From Anaerolineae bacterium (lineage in GTDB: Bacteria > Chloroflexota > Anaerolineae > Aggregatilineales > Ch27), in NCBI GenBank assembly GCA_013178165.1, contig JABLXG010000008.1, positions 1-64,000 of the forward strand: 64,000 bases of DNA, in the 5' to 3' direction. A model generated the notes under the pieces. The model was not told the origin of the DNA. It worked only from the letters and a program-made list of their open reading frames with translations, and made no database searches. A program made the translations under genes and the position numbers. This document shows, in pieces, positions 20,899-44,032 of the stretch. The stretch's first letter is position 1, and each line of letters starts with the position of its first letter.

Positions 20899-21847
20899 AG
20901 CGGATCCTCGGATCGATCATGCCATACGCCAGGTCGGTCAGCAGGTTGGCCGTGAGCACAACGATGGCGATCACCGTGTTCATGCCCATGATCAGGGGCA
21001 CATCTTTGGAATTCACGGCGTCCAGATACATGGTGCCCATGCCAGGCCAGCTAAAGATGGTCTCGATGAAAACCGCGCCAACAACCAGACTGGGCAGGCT
21101 CAGCCCGATCACCGTGATCACCGGCAGCAGGGCGTTTGGCAGGGTATGCCGCCAGATTACGACGCGCTCGCGCAGCCCTTTGCCCCTGGCTGTTCGCACA
21201 TAGTCGGTATGCAGCACCTCTAACATGCTGAAGCGCGTGTAGCGCATGAACGTGGCGATATACGCCAGGCTGAGGATGCCCGCCGGCAGGATCAGATGGT
21301 GCAGGGTATCCCACACCGTCGGATCGCGCTGCACAGGGCGCATCCCGCCGGAAGGGAAAATCTTCCACTCGATGGCGAACAGGTACATCCCTAGGATGCC
21401 GGTGATGAAGGCGGGCATGGAGATGCCTACAAAGGAGAGAGTCGTCAGGGCAAGGTCCCAGAATGAGTATTGTCGCAGCGCCGTGAAGACACCCAGGCTC
21501 ACGCCAATGATCGTGCCGACCAGCAAGGCGGTGCTCATCAGCAACAGGGTGTTGCCCAGCCGGCGACCGATGGCCGCCAGCACCGGCTCGCCGGAGACGT
21601 AGGTCAGGCCAAAGTCGCCCTGTACGGCGTTGCCCAGCCACTTGAGGTAACGCACCGGGGCCGGCTGGCCCAGCCCGAATCGCTCGCGGATAGCCTCCAG
21701 GGTTTCGGCGGAATAGCCGATTTCCGGGTTGATGAAGTTGTCCGCCACATCACCGGGCGCCAGTTCGATCAGCGCGAAGATGATGATGGTGACGCTGATC
21801 AGCACCGGGATGCTAACCACGATGCGTCGGATCAGATACTTGAACAT
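20891..21847 (-). CDS. Dipeptide-type ABC transporter permease (DppB-like)
   Basis: 318 residues, six hydrophobic segments. The N-terminal RRIVVSIPVLISVTIIIFAL, the PGD motif in ELAPGDVADNF and the EAA loop in YVRTARGKGLRERVVIWRHTLPN identify the DppB/OppB class. It follows the binding-protein gene after a gap of about 95 nt that contains a strong hairpin, and overlaps the DppC-like gene. The peptide/nickel family also includes transporters for oligosaccharides and sialic acid, so peptides are not implied. Confidence 0.9.
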   Translation of the reverse strand: MFKYLIRRIVVSIPVLISVTIIIFALIELAPGDVADNFINPEIGYSAETLEAIRERFGLGQPAPVRYLKWLGNAVQGDFGLTYVSGEPVLAAIGRRLGNTLLLMSTALLVGTIIGVSLGVFTALRQYSFWDLALTTLSFVGISMPAFITGILGMYLFAIEWKIFPSGGMRPVQRDPTVWDTLHHLILPAGILSLAYIATFMRYTRFSMLEVLHTDYVRTARGKGLRERVVIWRHTLPNALLPVITVIGLSLPSLVVGAVFIETIFSWPGMGTMYLDAVNSKDVPLIMGMNTVIAIVVLTANLLTDLAYGMIDPRIRYD

Positions 21848-21942: not shown

Positions 21943-23550
21943 TTATTCCGCTACCGCCCACAGTTCTGGATGATCTTCATACGGGCCGCCGCCGGGAGCG
22001 GGGAACCAGTAGAAGTCCACCAGATCGGTCGAGGCGACTCCAAAGCGCAGGGCGGTCCACATGTAGGCTTCGATGGCGTTTTCGTTCTGGAAGGCGCAGA
22101 TTTCCTGCAGGAGTTCGGTGTAACGATCGGGGTCGGCTTCCTGGCGGGCTGCGGCGATCAGCGCGTCAAGCTCCGGGAAGGACTGGCCCATCAACGTGCC
22201 GGTGTCGCCGACCGCGTTAGGATAGCCGCCGGTCTCATAGAACTGGAAGGGATAGTTGCCGGGGTTATTGCCCAGCCCACGGTAGGAAATCTGCCAGCCT
22301 TCGCCTGTGTAGAAGTAAGCGTTGTAGCCGTCAGCATCCACCCGCGGCACGACATTAATGCCCACATCGGCCAGGTATTGCTGCTGGGCGGCCATCGCAT
22401 CCATGTGAAACTGGCTGCTATAGTAGGTGACCAGCTCGATCGGTTCAGTTTGCTGCCAGCCTGCTTCAGCCAGAAGCTGGCGGGCCAGGTCAGGGTTGTA
22501 GGCGTAGTCGTTGTATTCCGCCGGCCACATGTTGGGGAAAGCGCCAAGGCAGGGCACAACCTGCGCTGTGCCGCCCAGGATCACCTCGGCAATGGCCTGG
22601 CGGTCGATGGCGTAAAGGAAAGCCTGCCGCACGCGCACGTCCTGGAATACCGGGTTGCGGTAGTTGAAGATGAAGTAGTTGGTCACGCCGGAGGGGCCTT
22701 GATGCAGCGTATAGCCCTTCTCGCCCAGTTGCAGGGCGACATCGCCACTGGCATAGGTGAAGTGAATCTCGCCAGCTTCCAGCGCCAGGATGGCGGCGGT
22801 TTCATCCTCGAAGTAGCGGTTGATCAGGCGGTCCAGCCTGGGCGCGCCGTTCCAGTAATTGGGGTTGGGCACAACAGCCCAGAACTGATCCCGCACAAAC
22901 TCCTCATGCATGAATGGGCCGGTGCCAACTGGATTGGTGAACCACCAGTCAGTAGTGGCGATCTCTGATGGCGCGAAATTGACGGCATGGGCTGGCAGGA
23001 TGTAAGAGTCGACCAGCTTGAAGGGGAAGCGCGGGTTGGGAGCTTCCAGTTCAAACTCGACGGTCAGATCGTCTACGACCCGCACGCCAGCCAGCTCCGC
23101 CGCTTCCCCGGCATTATAGGCCCGCGCGCCGAGGATGGTGAGCGCCGCAGCCTGGGGCGGCCCGGAGAAGGTGGAGCCGGGGGAGAGCACAAAGTCGAAG
23201 GTGAACTTGACGTCTTTGGCGGTGAATGGCTCGCCATCGTGCCATACCACGCCCTCGCGCAGGGTGAACGTCCAGATGGTATTGTCCTCGTTCGCCTCCC
23301 AGGCCACAGCCAGCTGAGGAGCCAGGCCGCTGACGTCCTCGTTATAGCTCACCAGTGGACTCCAGATCTTGCTCAGCCATGTGTTACCCGCTGTCTGAAC
23401 CCACGGTACGGTCTGCGGCAGGCCGCCAGGGCCGACATCAAATCCGCCGATCAGGGTGCCGCCTCCCTGAGCGCTGGCTGTCGCCGTGGAGAACGACAGG
23501 ATCATCGCCATCGCCAGCAGGGTCCACCACAACTTCTTTTGTCCGCTCAT
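21943..23550 (-). CDS. Family 5 extracellular solute-binding protein (Dpp-type)
   Basis: 535 residues. The ATG at 23550 (MSGQKKLWW) is preferred: AGAGAGG lies just upstream and a signal peptide follows (AMILSFSTATASAQ). There is no lipobox Cys, so it may be released or periplasmic rather than lipid-anchored. Family 5 features include NTWLSKIWSPLVSYN, WTFTLREGVVWHDGEPFTAKDV (about 95-117), VRQAFLYAIDRQAI and a C-terminal TELLQEICAFQNEN. It delivers substrate to the DppB/C-like permeases encoded downstream. The leader (23551-23690) carries an unusual perfect AAGGAGGTGA element shared with the binding-protein gene at 41621. A sialate-lyase-like gene in the same operon suggests a sugar acid rather than a peptide as ligand, but the sequence alone does not show this. 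Confidence 0.88.
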   Translation of the reverse strand: MSGQKKLWWTLLAMAMILSFSTATASAQGGGTLIGGFDVGPGGLPQTVPWVQTAGNTWLSKIWSPLVSYNEDVSGLAPQLAVAWEANEDNTIWTFTLREGVVWHDGEPFTAKDVKFTFDFVLSPGSTFSGPPQAAALTILGARAYNAGEAAELAGVRVVDDLTVEFELEAPNPRFPFKLVDSYILPAHAVNFAPSEIATTDWWFTNPVGTGPFMHEEFVRDQFWAVVPNPNYWNGAPRLDRLINRYFEDETAAILALEAGEIHFTYASGDVALQLGEKGYTLHQGPSGVTNYFIFNYRNPVFQDVRVRQAFLYAIDRQAIAEVILGGTAQVVPCLGAFPNMWPAEYNDYAYNPDLARQLLAEAGWQQTEPIELVTYYSSQFHMDAMAAQQQYLADVGINVVPRVDADGYNAYFYTGEGWQISYRGLGNNPGNYPFQFYETGGYPNAVGDTGTLMGQSFPELDALIAAARQEADPDRYTELLQEICAFQNENAIEAYMWTALRFGVASTDLVDFYWFPAPGGGPYEDHPELWAVAE

Positions 23551-23626
23551 TGTCTGCCTCTCTTTGCTTGAGGATACACTCCTGGCAATCGAGCCTGCGC
23601 GGGTAAGTACGCCGGGCGCCTCCCGC

Positions 23627-23690
23627 GCCTGCATAGAACAGGGCACAGAAGCCTGAGGGTTGTGCTCTGGTGACTCACCTCCTTTCCAGT
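23627..23690 (-). promoter_or_regulatory. Shared leader element upstream of the Dpp-type binding protein
   Basis: On the minus strand AAGGAGGTGA (23684-23675) is a full match to the complement of the 16S rRNA 3' end, yet lies about 125 nt before the gene start at 23550. After 24 nt follows a block (23650-23627) of the form TTCnnGyGCCCTG, a variable loop, then ATGCAGGC. The same two blocks, 26 nt apart, occur at 42976-42967 and 42940-42917. CCTG and CAGG can pair to form a small stem. The second block is about 75 nt from the true ribosome-binding site. Confidence 0.5.
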
Positions 23691-23734
23691 CTGTGGTACA
23701 GACGGCCTGCTAGCGGGCCATATGGCCAGTCGGG

Positions 23735-24499
23735 CTAGCTGCCGGAGTAACCGAGTCGTTCGGAGATAGCATGTGCCGTGCGTCTGACGGCGATGCTGAG
23801 TTCCTGGTCACGGGCTGGCCTCATCCGCGCTGCTGGCCCGGAGATGCTGACGGCGGCAATGACACGCCCACTGTAGTCGCGGATGGGCGCGGCCACACAG
23901 CGCACGCCCGGCTCCGATTCCACGTTGTCGATGGCGTAACCCTGTTCCCGTACCTTCTGCAGTTCGGCGGCAAAGGCTTCCGGGTCAACGATGGTGGCCG
24001 GGGTGCGCCGGGGCATGCCGTGTTTGGCAATGGCCTCGCGCCAGACTTCTTCCGGCGAAAAGGCGGCCAGCACCTTGCCCAGCGCGGTGCAGTGAATGGG
24101 GCCGCGCTTGCCGATCTGGGTGAACATCCCCTGCGTTTGCAGGCCCTCCACCCGATCGACGTAGACCACTTCGCCATCATTCAGGACGGCCAGGTGTACG
24201 GTTTCGTTGACACGGTGCATCAGCAGTTTCAGATGCGGCATGGCCAGGGCAGCCAGATTGAGCCGTCCGATGACCTGGCCGCGCAACTGCAGGAAACGCA
24301 GCCCCAGCGTGTACTTGCGCGTATCGGGGTCCTGTTCGATGTACCCCAGCGCGATCAACGTGTGCAGCAGGCGGTGCGTCGTTCCCAGCGGCAAGCCGCT
24401 GGATTCGGCCAGCTCGGAGATGCCCAGTCCACGCTCAGCCTGGCCCAGCAGTTCGAGCAGTGTGAAGGCCTTCTGGACGGCGGCAACTTGCTTGGTCAT
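23735..24499 (-). CDS. IclR-family transcriptional regulator
   Basis: 254 residues from ATG 24499 (a GTG at 24514 would add five residues). The N-terminal winged helix-turn-helix is at about 10-65 (GLGISELAESSGLPLGTTHR, then YIEQDPDTRKYTLG). The C-terminal effector domain (about 75-250) has the family blocks HCTALGKVLAAF, GYAIDNVESEPGVRCVAAPI and GRVIAAVSISGPAARM. IclR proteins usually control nearby catabolic genes in response to a small acid or sugar. Here it sits between a ROK/SIS/aldolase operon and the Dpp-type transporter on the same strand, so either or both are candidate targets. An inverted repeat just upstream of its start (24518-24534) may be its own operator. Confidence 0.92.
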   Translation of the reverse strand: MTKQVAAVQKAFTLLELLGQAERGLGISELAESSGLPLGTTHRLLHTLIALGYIEQDPDTRKYTLGLRFLQLRGQVIGRLNLAALAMPHLKLLMHRVNETVHLAVLNDGEVVYVDRVEGLQTQGMFTQIGKRGPIHCTALGKVLAAFSPEEVWREAIAKHGMPRRTPATIVDPEAFAAELQKVREQGYAIDNVESEPGVRCVAAPIRDYSGRVIAAVSISGPAARMRPARDQELSIAVRRTAHAISERLGYSGS

Positions 24500-24517
24500 A
24501 GGCGTTCTTTCCACCAG

Positions 24518-41620: not shown

Positions 41621-42883
41621 CTATTCGGGCAGAGTCTCTTCCAGCTCGGGCCGGACTTCAGCGGCCAGTTCCGCCGGGGTCAGGTCGGTCTCGTTGTTGA
41701 TCAGCGGACCCCAGAACTTCGACCAGAAGATCGAGTCAAATTCGGCGTAGTTGCCGAAGATAGGCAGCGCACGCATCTCCTGGGCGGCAGCGACGATTGC
41801 CTCGGCGCTGGCAGCCTTGCGCGGTTCCGAGGATACCAGGTGCTCCACAGTGGCCTGCGAGATGCGCGGCGAGACGATCTTCCAGTGATGGATGCCCTCG
41901 GTCACGGCCAGCAGGGCCTTGCAGGCCAGGTCCGGATGAGCAGTGTTGGCGGAGATGACGGTGCTGGCGTTCCAGGCGAAGGTGACATGGCTACCGGTCC
42001 GCGGATGGCCGGGGACGCGCACCACGCCCACATTCAGACCCTCGACGCGGTCGAGGTCGTCAGCAGCGCCGCCCATGAACATGGCGATCTTGCCAGCCTT
42101 GAACATCTCGCTGAAGCCCTGCTCGGCGATGATTTCGCGGCTGGGGGACATCTCCGGGTTATAGGCGGTGCTCAGATAGAACTCGAAGCCTTCCAGGAAT
42201 TCGGGTGTGTCGATCGGGGCCTCGGTGAAATCGGGGCTGATTAGCTCACCACCGGCCTGCCAGACGAAGATGAAGGGGGGCGGCCAGCCGTTGTTGGTGA
42301 AGCCCCACTGGTCGATCTCGCCATCGTCGTTGGTATCCAGGGTCAGGGCCTTGGCCATAGCGACAAAATCGTCCCAGGTCCAGTCCGGGGTGGGGTAGTC
42401 CAGCCCGGCGGCGTCGAAGAGGTCCTTGTTGTAGTAAGTGACGACTGGCTGAGCGATCCAGGGCAGGCCGTAGACTTCGTCTTCATAGATATTGACGGCC
42501 AGGATGCCCGGATAGTAGTCGTTGACATCCCCGGCGGTGCCCGGTTCGGCGCTCGCCAGGCAGTCAGTCAGCGGCAGGAAGACGCCTTCCGAGGCCAGAG
42601 CCATGTTGTTCTGGTCAATCCAGTACAGATCCGCGCCGACTCCACCGGCGATCTGCGTCTTGACCTGGGTGTAGTAATCCGAGGGGATGGGCGAATGGAC
42701 GATCTGATACTCGTTCTGGCTGGCGTTGATCTCGTCCAGGATGACCTGCAGTTCGGCGGCTTCGTCAACACCGGCCCAGGTCGAGATCGTGATCGTCACC
42801 GGCTCGGTTTGAGCCAGCGACGGCAGCGCTCCCAGCGCCAGCATCAGGGCGACGGCTAACAGCACCAGGCGATTCCTTGACAT
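41621..42883 (-). CDS. Carbohydrate ABC transporter substrate-binding protein (MalE/UgpB-like)
   Basis: 420 residues, ATG 42883 behind AAAGGAG. It has a signal peptide (LVLLAVALMLALGALPSLAQ) and no lipobox Cys. Family 1 binding-protein features are VTITISTWAGVDEAAELQVIL, DLYWIDQNNMALASEGVFLPL, YGLPWIAQPVVTYYNKDLFD (about 135-154), DWTWDDFVAMAKALT and GKIAMFMGGAADDL. It captures an oligosaccharide for the MalF/G-like permeases. The gene follows the LacI regulator on the same strand; its leader has the AAGGAGGTGA element at 42967-42976. The glycosidases around it suggest a mannose-containing oligosaccharide, which is an inference. Confidence 0.92.
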   Translation of the reverse strand: MSRNRLVLLAVALMLALGALPSLAQTEPVTITISTWAGVDEAAELQVILDEINASQNEYQIVHSPIPSDYYTQVKTQIAGGVGADLYWIDQNNMALASEGVFLPLTDCLASAEPGTAGDVNDYYPGILAVNIYEDEVYGLPWIAQPVVTYYNKDLFDAAGLDYPTPDWTWDDFVAMAKALTLDTNDDGEIDQWGFTNNGWPPPFIFVWQAGGELISPDFTEAPIDTPEFLEGFEFYLSTAYNPEMSPSREIIAEQGFSEMFKAGKIAMFMGGAADDLDRVEGLNVGVVRVPGHPRTGSHVTFAWNASTVISANTAHPDLACKALLAVTEGIHHWKIVSPRISQATVEHLVSSEPRKAASAEAIVAAAQEMRALPIFGNYAEFDSIFWSKFWGPLINNETDLTPAELAAEVRPELEETLPE

Positions 42884-42916
42884 GTCTTTCTCTCTCCTTT
42901 AGCGTAAATCTTGACT

Positions 42917-42980
42917 GCCTGCATCGGCAGGGCGCGTGAAAGCGATCCGACGTGTAGTGTGGGGTTTCACCTCCTTCTCC
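42917..42980 (-). promoter_or_regulatory. Shared leader element upstream of the MalE-like binding protein
   Basis: On the minus strand AAGGAGGTGA (42976-42967) is followed after 26 nt by TTCnnGyGCCCTG, a loop and ATGCAGGC (42940-42917). The arrangement matches that at 23627-23690. CCTGC and GCAGG form a small stem. The genuine ribosome-binding site of the binding-protein gene (AAAGGAG, 42900-42894) lies further on. The element begins 18 nt after the LacI stop codon. Confidence 0.5.
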
Positions 42981-42997
42981 GGGCCAGCGCGGCCTGG

Positions 42998-44017
42998 TTA
43001 TCCGGCGGGTCTGGCGCAGGTATCGCGCTCGACCAGCTTAACCGCTACGCAGATTTCGGTGGGCATCAGGCTGCTGTCCTCGAGCAAGGCCAGCAACCGG
43101 CTGGCGGCTTCCTTGCCGATCTGATGCTTGGGAACGTCAATGGTGGTGAGCGGCGGGCGGTTCAGGCGCGCCCATTCAATGTTGTCGAAACCGATCACGG
43201 AAAGATCGTCCGGCACCCGGCGACCGGCGGCCTGAGCGGCCTGGATGGCGCCGATGGCCATCGAGTCGTTAACCGCACACAGCGCGGTGACTTCCGGGTG
43301 TTGCTCCATCAGGCGGGCATAGGCCTCTGCGCCCGAATCGATGGTTGTCCGGTCCATATGGATGACATGTATGGGTAATCCGGCTTCTTCCAGAATCTGC
43401 CGGTAACCGCGCACGCGGCGGGTATTGCTAGGCCAGGTCTGCGGCCCGGCCAGGATACCGATCCGGCGGTGGCCGAGATTCAGCAGATATTCGGCGGCCC
43501 TGGCCGCGCCGCCGGTATCGTCGCAGTTGACACAGTTGACGGGCTGGTAATCCAGCCGGTTGTCTACCAGCACAACTGGCAGATCGGTGTGCAGCATGGC
43601 CATGATGAATTCGGCGGGGATATCCGGGCCGGCCAGGATCATCCCGTCGACCCGTCCCTCCCGCACGAAGCGGAATTGCGCCGGCTTGCTGAGAATATCG
43701 GCGGTGAGGGTAGCGATGGCCACGTGGTAATCAGAGCGGGCGCAGACCTGCTCCACCCCGTGCAGAATCTCGCCATAGAAGGGGTCTGTCTGGGCGGCCA
43801 GGCCAGGCTTTTCCCGTACAAAGAAGCCCAGGGCGAATGTCCGGGCGGTGGCCAGACCTCGCGCGGTCACGCTCGGCGTGTAGTTCAGCTCCCGTGCCTT
43901 TTCCAGGATGCGCTGACGTAACTCCGGGCCAACACCGGGTTTGTCGTTGAGCGCCCTGGAGACGGAGGCGCTTGAGACGTGCAGCGCTTCGGCAATCTGC
44001 TGGATAATAGACGGCAT
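42998..44017 (-). CDS. LacI-family transcriptional regulator
   Basis: 339 residues from ATG 44017 (a GTG at 44023 is also possible). The N-terminal helix-turn-helix is IIQQIAEALHVSSASVSRAL, followed by the hinge-helix region ARELNYTPSVTARGLATAR. The periplasmic-binding-like effector domain (about 60-339) has VDGMILAGPDIPAEF, HRRIGILAGPQTWPSNTRRV and SVIGFDNIEWARL. It lacks a membrane segment. It is the first gene of the operon with the MalE/F/G-like transporter, CBM9 protein, GH130 and oxidoreductase. A palindrome at 44033-44058 overlapping its promoter is the likely operator, so autoregulation and control of the divergent genes are plausible. Confidence 0.93.
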   Translation of the reverse strand: MPSIIQQIAEALHVSSASVSRALNDKPGVGPELRQRILEKARELNYTPSVTARGLATARTFALGFFVREKPGLAAQTDPFYGEILHGVEQVCARSDYHVAIATLTADILSKPAQFRFVREGRVDGMILAGPDIPAEFIMAMLHTDLPVVLVDNRLDYQPVNCVNCDDTGGAARAAEYLLNLGHRRIGILAGPQTWPSNTRRVRGYRQILEEAGLPIHVIHMDRTTIDSGAEAYARLMEQHPEVTALCAVNDSMAIGAIQAAQAAGRRVPDDLSVIGFDNIEWARLNRPPLTTIDVPKHQIGKEAASRLLALLEDSSLMPTEICVAVKLVERDTCARPAG

Positions 44018-44032
44018 AGCCACTCAAGTCAG

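Follow-up and report, generated by a model that had tools for sequence, protein, structure and literature searches.

The window, i.e., the whole 64-kb stretch of DNA analysed here, is part of a MAG (4.19-Mb assembly, 52 contigs) and contains two ABC substrate-binding-protein (SBP) genes, both on the minus strand: one of the SBP_bac_5 family (Dpp/Opp-type; 21943..23550; Pfam PF00496, 290.6 bits) and one of the SBP_bac_1 family (MalE-like; 41621..42883; Pfam PF01547, 92 bits). On the same strand, an IclR-family regulator gene (23735..24514; Pfam PF01614 and PF09339) lies upstream of the former and a LacI-family regulator gene (42998..44023; Pfam PF13377 and PF00356) upstream of the latter. The open reading frames thus delimit two intergenic minus-strand leaders, 23551..23734 and 42884..42997. 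The Pfam matches agree with the first-pass annotation, in which the leaders of two binding proteins of unrelated families directly followed an IclR and a LacI gene. An ordinary ribosome-binding site (RBS) precedes each SBP start on the minus strand, AGAGAGG at 23557..23563 for the SBP_bac_5 gene and AAAGGAG at 42894..42900 for the SBP_bac_1 gene.

Further upstream, both leaders carry the two sequence blocks that had been described for them, at the positions given there and beyond shuffle expectation. Block 1, AAGGAGGTGA, is found twice in the window (0.07 expected from shuffles), and the block 2 pattern, GCCCTG N{3,12} ATGCAGGC, likewise twice (0.03 expected); all of these matches fall in the leaders of the two minus-strand SBP genes and nowhere else, so that block 1 precedes both SBP genes found in the window. 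It ends 125 nt before the start codon at 23550 and 84 nt before that at 42883, the range given in the annotation. The 16S rRNA of this genome ends in GGCTGGATCACCTCCTTTCT, so block 1 is an exact complement of the anti-Shine-Dalgarno (anti-SD) sequence of its own ribosomes, as had been claimed. In the SBP_bac_5 leader, the complementary run extends over 12 nt, GAAAGGAGGTGA (23675..23686, minus strand), and is conserved in the G001 orthologue; in the SBP_bac_1 leader it is AAGGAGGTGA (42967..42976, minus strand), retained in orthologues. We refer to these sites as far Shine-Dalgarno sequences (far SDs). Block 2 (23627..23650 and 42917..42940, both minus strand) is a real match in both leaders, judged below to be a local resemblance outside the recurrent element.

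Throughout the genome AAGGAGGTGA occurs in 11 copies, six of them far upstream of SBP genes from three Pfam families (four SBP_bac_1 genes, the SBP_bac_5 gene, and one Bmp/PnrA-like gene). The remaining copies were found once each before a gene for a secreted multihaem cytochrome, antisense in the 16S gene, at a real RBS, in a gene interior, and before a short open reading frame. With the limit set at 7 nt or more, far SDs precede 22 of the 39 SBP_bac_1 genes of this genome. In the 864-kb sample of the genome, AAGGAGGTG was encountered at the RBS position in no case; the longest SD sequences in this genome are therefore mainly leader elements. An origin of block 1 as a 16S-derived fragment was considered and rejected: in the SBP leaders the homology ends after GGTGA, and the sole antisense 16S copy is that at L019.

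Two further loci were observed in this connection. The cytochrome gene (L112:13311-15179, G000:C23; Cytochrome_C7, MtrC/F-like) has the same far SD 125 nt upstream, so the element is not confined to SBPs. At L016 / L119 (G000:C26 near 20,900-21,100, minus strand), a promoter-like sequence is followed by AAAGGAGGTGATCCAG, a 16-nt complement of the 16S 3' end, a 10-codon open reading frame, a strong hairpin, and a terminator-like hairpin; Rfam gave sub-threshold matches only (CC2171, ar14), and the locus looks like a small RNA or a leader-peptide attenuator.

The association with SBP genes was evaluated on 864 kb sampled from this genome together with about 0.65 Mb of sequence surrounding SBP genes in 14 relatives from its order; eight families were represented. 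To count as a far SD, a run had to be 8 nt or longer, lie in an intergenic region, and be 45-190 nt upstream of the start; other genes with a comparable leader served as controls. Far SDs precede 61/129 SBP genes and 11/707 other genes (odds ratio 57, Fisher p = 1e-44), with genes called by a home-made script and related genomes counted repeatedly. They were found in all eight families of the order and before SBP genes of several unrelated protein families; about half of the SBP genes are without one. Among the 11 other genes, some are in fact SBPs outside the families searched, e.g., a Peripla_BP_4 protein in L118. The consensus is the extended Shine-Dalgarno sequence GAAAGGAGGTGA, with runs of 8-14 nt complementary to the 16S 3' end.

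An unbiased comparison of 6-8-mers in SBP leaders (116) and in leaders of other genes (661), with the sister species left out and Bonferroni correction, led to the same element: AAGGAG is present in 58/116 SBP leaders and 19/661 others, and every k-mer surviving the correction is a fragment of, or overlaps, the GAAAGGAGGTGA site. No k-mer unrelated to the far SD passed Bonferroni against the leaders of other genes, i.e., no second shared leader motif was found in this comparison. ACCGTT and CCTGA look over-represented between far SD and RBS relative to shuffles, though not significantly so relative to other genes' leaders.

Block 2 behaves differently. Its k-mer GCCCTG is present in 9/116 SBP leaders and 63/661 others, which is no enrichment. 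In the sister species of the same genus (Chloroflexi MAG S1bins113), CCTG..CAGG is kept at both loci and the remainder of block 2 is changed (GTCCTGTGCTACGCAGG at the IclR locus; GCCCTGCCAATACAGG at the LacI locus); in the next close orthologue, from Anaerolineae bacterium CFX9, and in other more distant orthologues block 2 is absent. As a conserved element it was thus rejected, being neither enriched in SBP leaders nor conserved outside the genus. The annotation had also proposed a cis-regulatory RNA, which would consist of block 1 and a block 2 hairpin. Such an RNA would account for the likeness of block 2 in the two window leaders, which is unlikely by chance in shuffles but was picked after the fact, and for the retained CCTG..CAGG with altered loops in the sister species; the lack of k-mer enrichment and the loss from CFX9 and other orthologues speak against it. 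The leaders gave no match in Rfam, and the two window leaders fold no better than shuffles (z-scores 0.08 for the SBP_bac_5 leader and 0.74 for the SBP_bac_1 leader). A structured cis-regulatory RNA or riboswitch was consequently discarded as a candidate, and the two-block RNA is largely refuted and very improbable. Since block 1 recurs genome-wide and order-wide and block 2 does not, the pair of blocks is better described as one recurrent element and one local resemblance: of the shared two-block leader first proposed for SBP genes, block 1 stands and is general across the order, and block 2 falls away.

The far SD is conserved beyond its surroundings. Between this genome and its sister species, its presence or absence agrees in 14 of 15 orthologous SBP genes, and 9 of 13 orthologues across the family, at 45-91% protein identity, have retained it. 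In eight leader pairs, 87/88 far SD positions are identical versus 509/574 for the remaining leader, a comparison that is biased upward because the pairs were picked for having the site. At the LacI-MalE locus, orthologues of 98, 79, 57, 58, 48, and 42% identity (compared were L299, L300, L301, L302, L305, and L306) carry a far SD 81-105 nt upstream, in leaders that are otherwise unrelated beyond the sister species. In named genomes retrieved with a MalE query, far SDs of at least 7 nt precede 13/24 Chloroflexota SBP genes versus 1/44 in other phyla, counts in which the orthologues are not independent and the starts were set by script. In Chloroflexota outside the order the element is rarer, about 3/22 SBP genes (judged by eye; at least 8 nt, 45-150 nt upstream).

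The far SD resembles a translation start signal, and start codons are depleted behind it. In 78 leaders, ATG follows the far GGAGG at 3-11 nt in one case versus 9.6 in slid controls; for ATG, GTG, and TTG together the figures are 6 and 26. The possibility raised at the outset that block 1 begins a translated small gene fails on this depletion. The related proposal, that it serves as RBS for a leader peptide missed in annotation or for a longer SBP form, has in its favour that the site is an SD sequence; it is highly unlikely, given a four- to ten-fold depletion of start codons at the right distance and given the downstream start itself, where the SBPs have their signal peptide and usually a shorter SD of the ordinary kind. 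The anti-SD core CCTCC, which could mask the far SD, is missing from the leaders (0 versus 4.2 in shuffles); additional accessibility of the far SD was not found (unpaired probability 0.427 versus 0.431 in shuffled context). Recognition by a GGA-reading RNA-binding protein, for instance CsrA, would suit the GGA-rich motif, but the CsrA family PF02599 is absent from this genome (controls E. coli, B. subtilis, and T. maritima were positive) and conservation spans the full anti-SD complement GAAAGGAGGTGA, which leaves this explanation with hardly any weight. Taken at the level of the sequences, block 1 is well supported as a recurrent, selectively maintained, non-initiating SD in front of SBP genes.

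The spacing between the far SD and the real start, measured from GGAG to the start codon for 126 SBP genes, has a lower limit. The interval of 25-69 nt is empty, and that of 70-150 nt holds 53 far SDs (p = 5e-14); the distribution has a sharp onset at 72 nt and a peak at 77-93 nt, and most sites fall within 72-135 nt. Judged by ribosome footprints in general, this distance would be just about enough to hold both a 30S subunit docked on the far SD and a ribosome initiating at the start codon. We infer that the minimum may reflect the space needed for a parked subunit and an initiating ribosome to be accommodated simultaneously.

This spacing also bears on ribosome standby, which had been suggested as a function of the leader. 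Here the far SD would be a loading platform that captures the 30S subunit and passes it to the real start, raising the rate of initiation and not the lifetime of the mRNA. Standby sites help a structured RBS and act without strong SD pairing; the far SD shares with them a ribosome contact upstream of the real start. The same sequence facts would be expected under standby as under a STAB-SD-like reading, and SBP genes are of the strongly translated type, with better ordinary RBSs (mean run 5.3-5.5 versus 3.9 nt). However, the RBS behind a far SD is no more structured than that of genes without one (unpaired probability 0.465 and 0.463, respectively), which makes standby less likely, and a hard minimum of 72 nt with no site at 25-69 nt is the opposite of what short-range sliding would give. 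Standby is accordingly disfavoured, and we regard it as unlikely, though the most plausible of the alternatives. The broader proposal, that unrelated binding-protein genes share a leader element with which ribosomes engage, has strong support for block 1 from its recurrence, the start-codon depletion, the spacing, and the k-mer comparison.

Transcription of the site was approached through promoter-like sequences. Strong sigma70-like promoter sequences, recognised in a few leaders, lie upstream of the far SD in 11 of 12 matches, among which one promoter is counted twice, in two sister species; the far SD should therefore be transcribed in these cases. The predicted transcription starts are 16-252 nt upstream of the far SD, which would put some far SDs well away from the primary 5' end. 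As a group, the leaders gave no signal for a common -10 box immediately before the far SD. In some leaders, perfect operator-like palindromes are located just upstream of the far SD (TTGTAAAAGCGCTTTTACAA in L243; GGGTGTAAAAGCGTTTTTACACCC in L233; TGATAAAGCGATTTATCA in L267; TTGAACCGGTTCAA in L200); these probably serve sugar ABC operons as LacI-type operators. The pattern is broken at L014 (G000:C14 near 43,900, minus strand), an apparently truncated PnrA/Bmp-like SBP gene (96 aa) with a far SD, where a promoter-like TTGACG-17-TAGACT is situated between the far SD and the start.

The far SD is often found 0-60 nt past the stop codon of a same-strand upstream gene, an arrangement that fits an SBP message outliving the regulator message. 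It would also fit a model in which 30S subunits stay on the RNA after terminating at the upstream cistron, so that translation of regulator and SBP would be coupled or insulated; of 70 upstream genes, 61 share the strand of the SBP gene. Yet in the nine cases with an oppositely oriented neighbour the far SD is 136-746 nt away from it, and the neighbours of SBP genes lacking a far SD are arranged in much the same way (51 on the same strand, 17 on the opposite one), so that retention appears improbable.

The reading that we prefer, with a probability of about 0.57, is that block 1 is a STAB-SD-like site at which a non-initiating 30S subunit would block 5'-3' decay by RNase J and so favour SBP mRNA over its neighbours. 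A 30S subunit would dock at the far SD without initiating; like the long cry3A transcript, the RNA would first be trimmed by the exonuclease as far as this subunit, where decay would halt. The SBP mRNA would then outlive the RNA upstream of it (regulator read-through or a long leader), and more SBP would be made relative to the products of neighbouring genes. The enzyme required is encoded in this genome (TIGR00649, 581 bits, catalytic motif HGHEDH), and TIGR00649 scores above cut-off in 28 of 31 genomes. Recurrence, anti-SD match, start-codon depletion, minimum spacing, conservation among orthologues, and the presence of RNase J are the components for which the sequences themselves provide the support; the decay-blocking mode of action is proposed by analogy with cry3A. 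A wider proposition, to which we would give even odds, is that about half of the Chloroflexota ABC SBP mRNAs, of whatever family, have a 30S subunit parked upstream of the initiating ribosome and no nearer to it than a conserved minimum distance, a stability amplifier that would lift the binding protein above regulator and permease and would represent a general use of STAB-SDs outside the Bacillota.

A transporter needs its binding protein in excess, and only for a few models is it understood how operons bring this about. A simple anti-SD complement at a distance of 72 nt or more upstream would offer a portable means of raising the binding protein. If the STAB-SD-like reading is true, ribosome protection against RNase J would reach beyond a scattering of Bacillus genes and cover an entire class of genes in a different phylum, and the costs and benefits of non-initiating ribosome binding would become testable. 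The far SD would also provide a rule by which any RNase J-containing genome could be scanned at the sequence level; for gene finders, it is a warning that a start codon need not follow the strongest SD of a leader. In the open-access literature, most subscription papers being outside the scope, we found no earlier report of a far SD in Chloroflexota or of one as a rule for a gene class.

Among known systems, the REP hairpins after malE of E. coli confer differential mRNA stability inside ABC operons. The far SD would meet the same need, more binding protein than permease, by other means: the REP elements are hairpins on the 3' side, and the far SD is a single-stranded SD on the 5' side. In the hbs mRNA of Bacillus subtilis, a ribosome on a strong SD stops RNase J1 and sets a stable 5' end (Daou-Chabo 2009, as cited in PMC5419742); in that mRNA the protecting ribosomes initiate translation of the gene itself, whereas the far SD has no start codon. 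In Bacilli, a strong SD without a start codon stabilises long stretches of downstream RNA, and in E. coli such protection at a distance is much less efficient (PMC3997798). The closest counterpart is cry3A of Bacillus thuringiensis, in which an SD-like sequence about 129 nt before the start does not initiate, binds 30S subunits, and stops RNase J1 (PMC4113751), the STAB-SD [Agaisse and Lereclus 1996, in the form in which it is reviewed in PMC4113751]. For the far SD, stabilisation of the mRNA and a processed 5' end are predictions. The cry3A STAB-SD and the far SD are both leader sequences that can pair with the 16S 3' end and lack a start codon behind them, in cells that possess RNase J, and their distances to the start are comparable (about 130 nt for cry3A; mostly 72-135 nt for the far SD). 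They differ in distribution: STAB-SDs of the cry3A type are known from cry3 and a few other Gram-positive genes, whereas the far SD occurs in Chloroflexota, in front of about half of the SBP genes and with a sharp minimum spacing.
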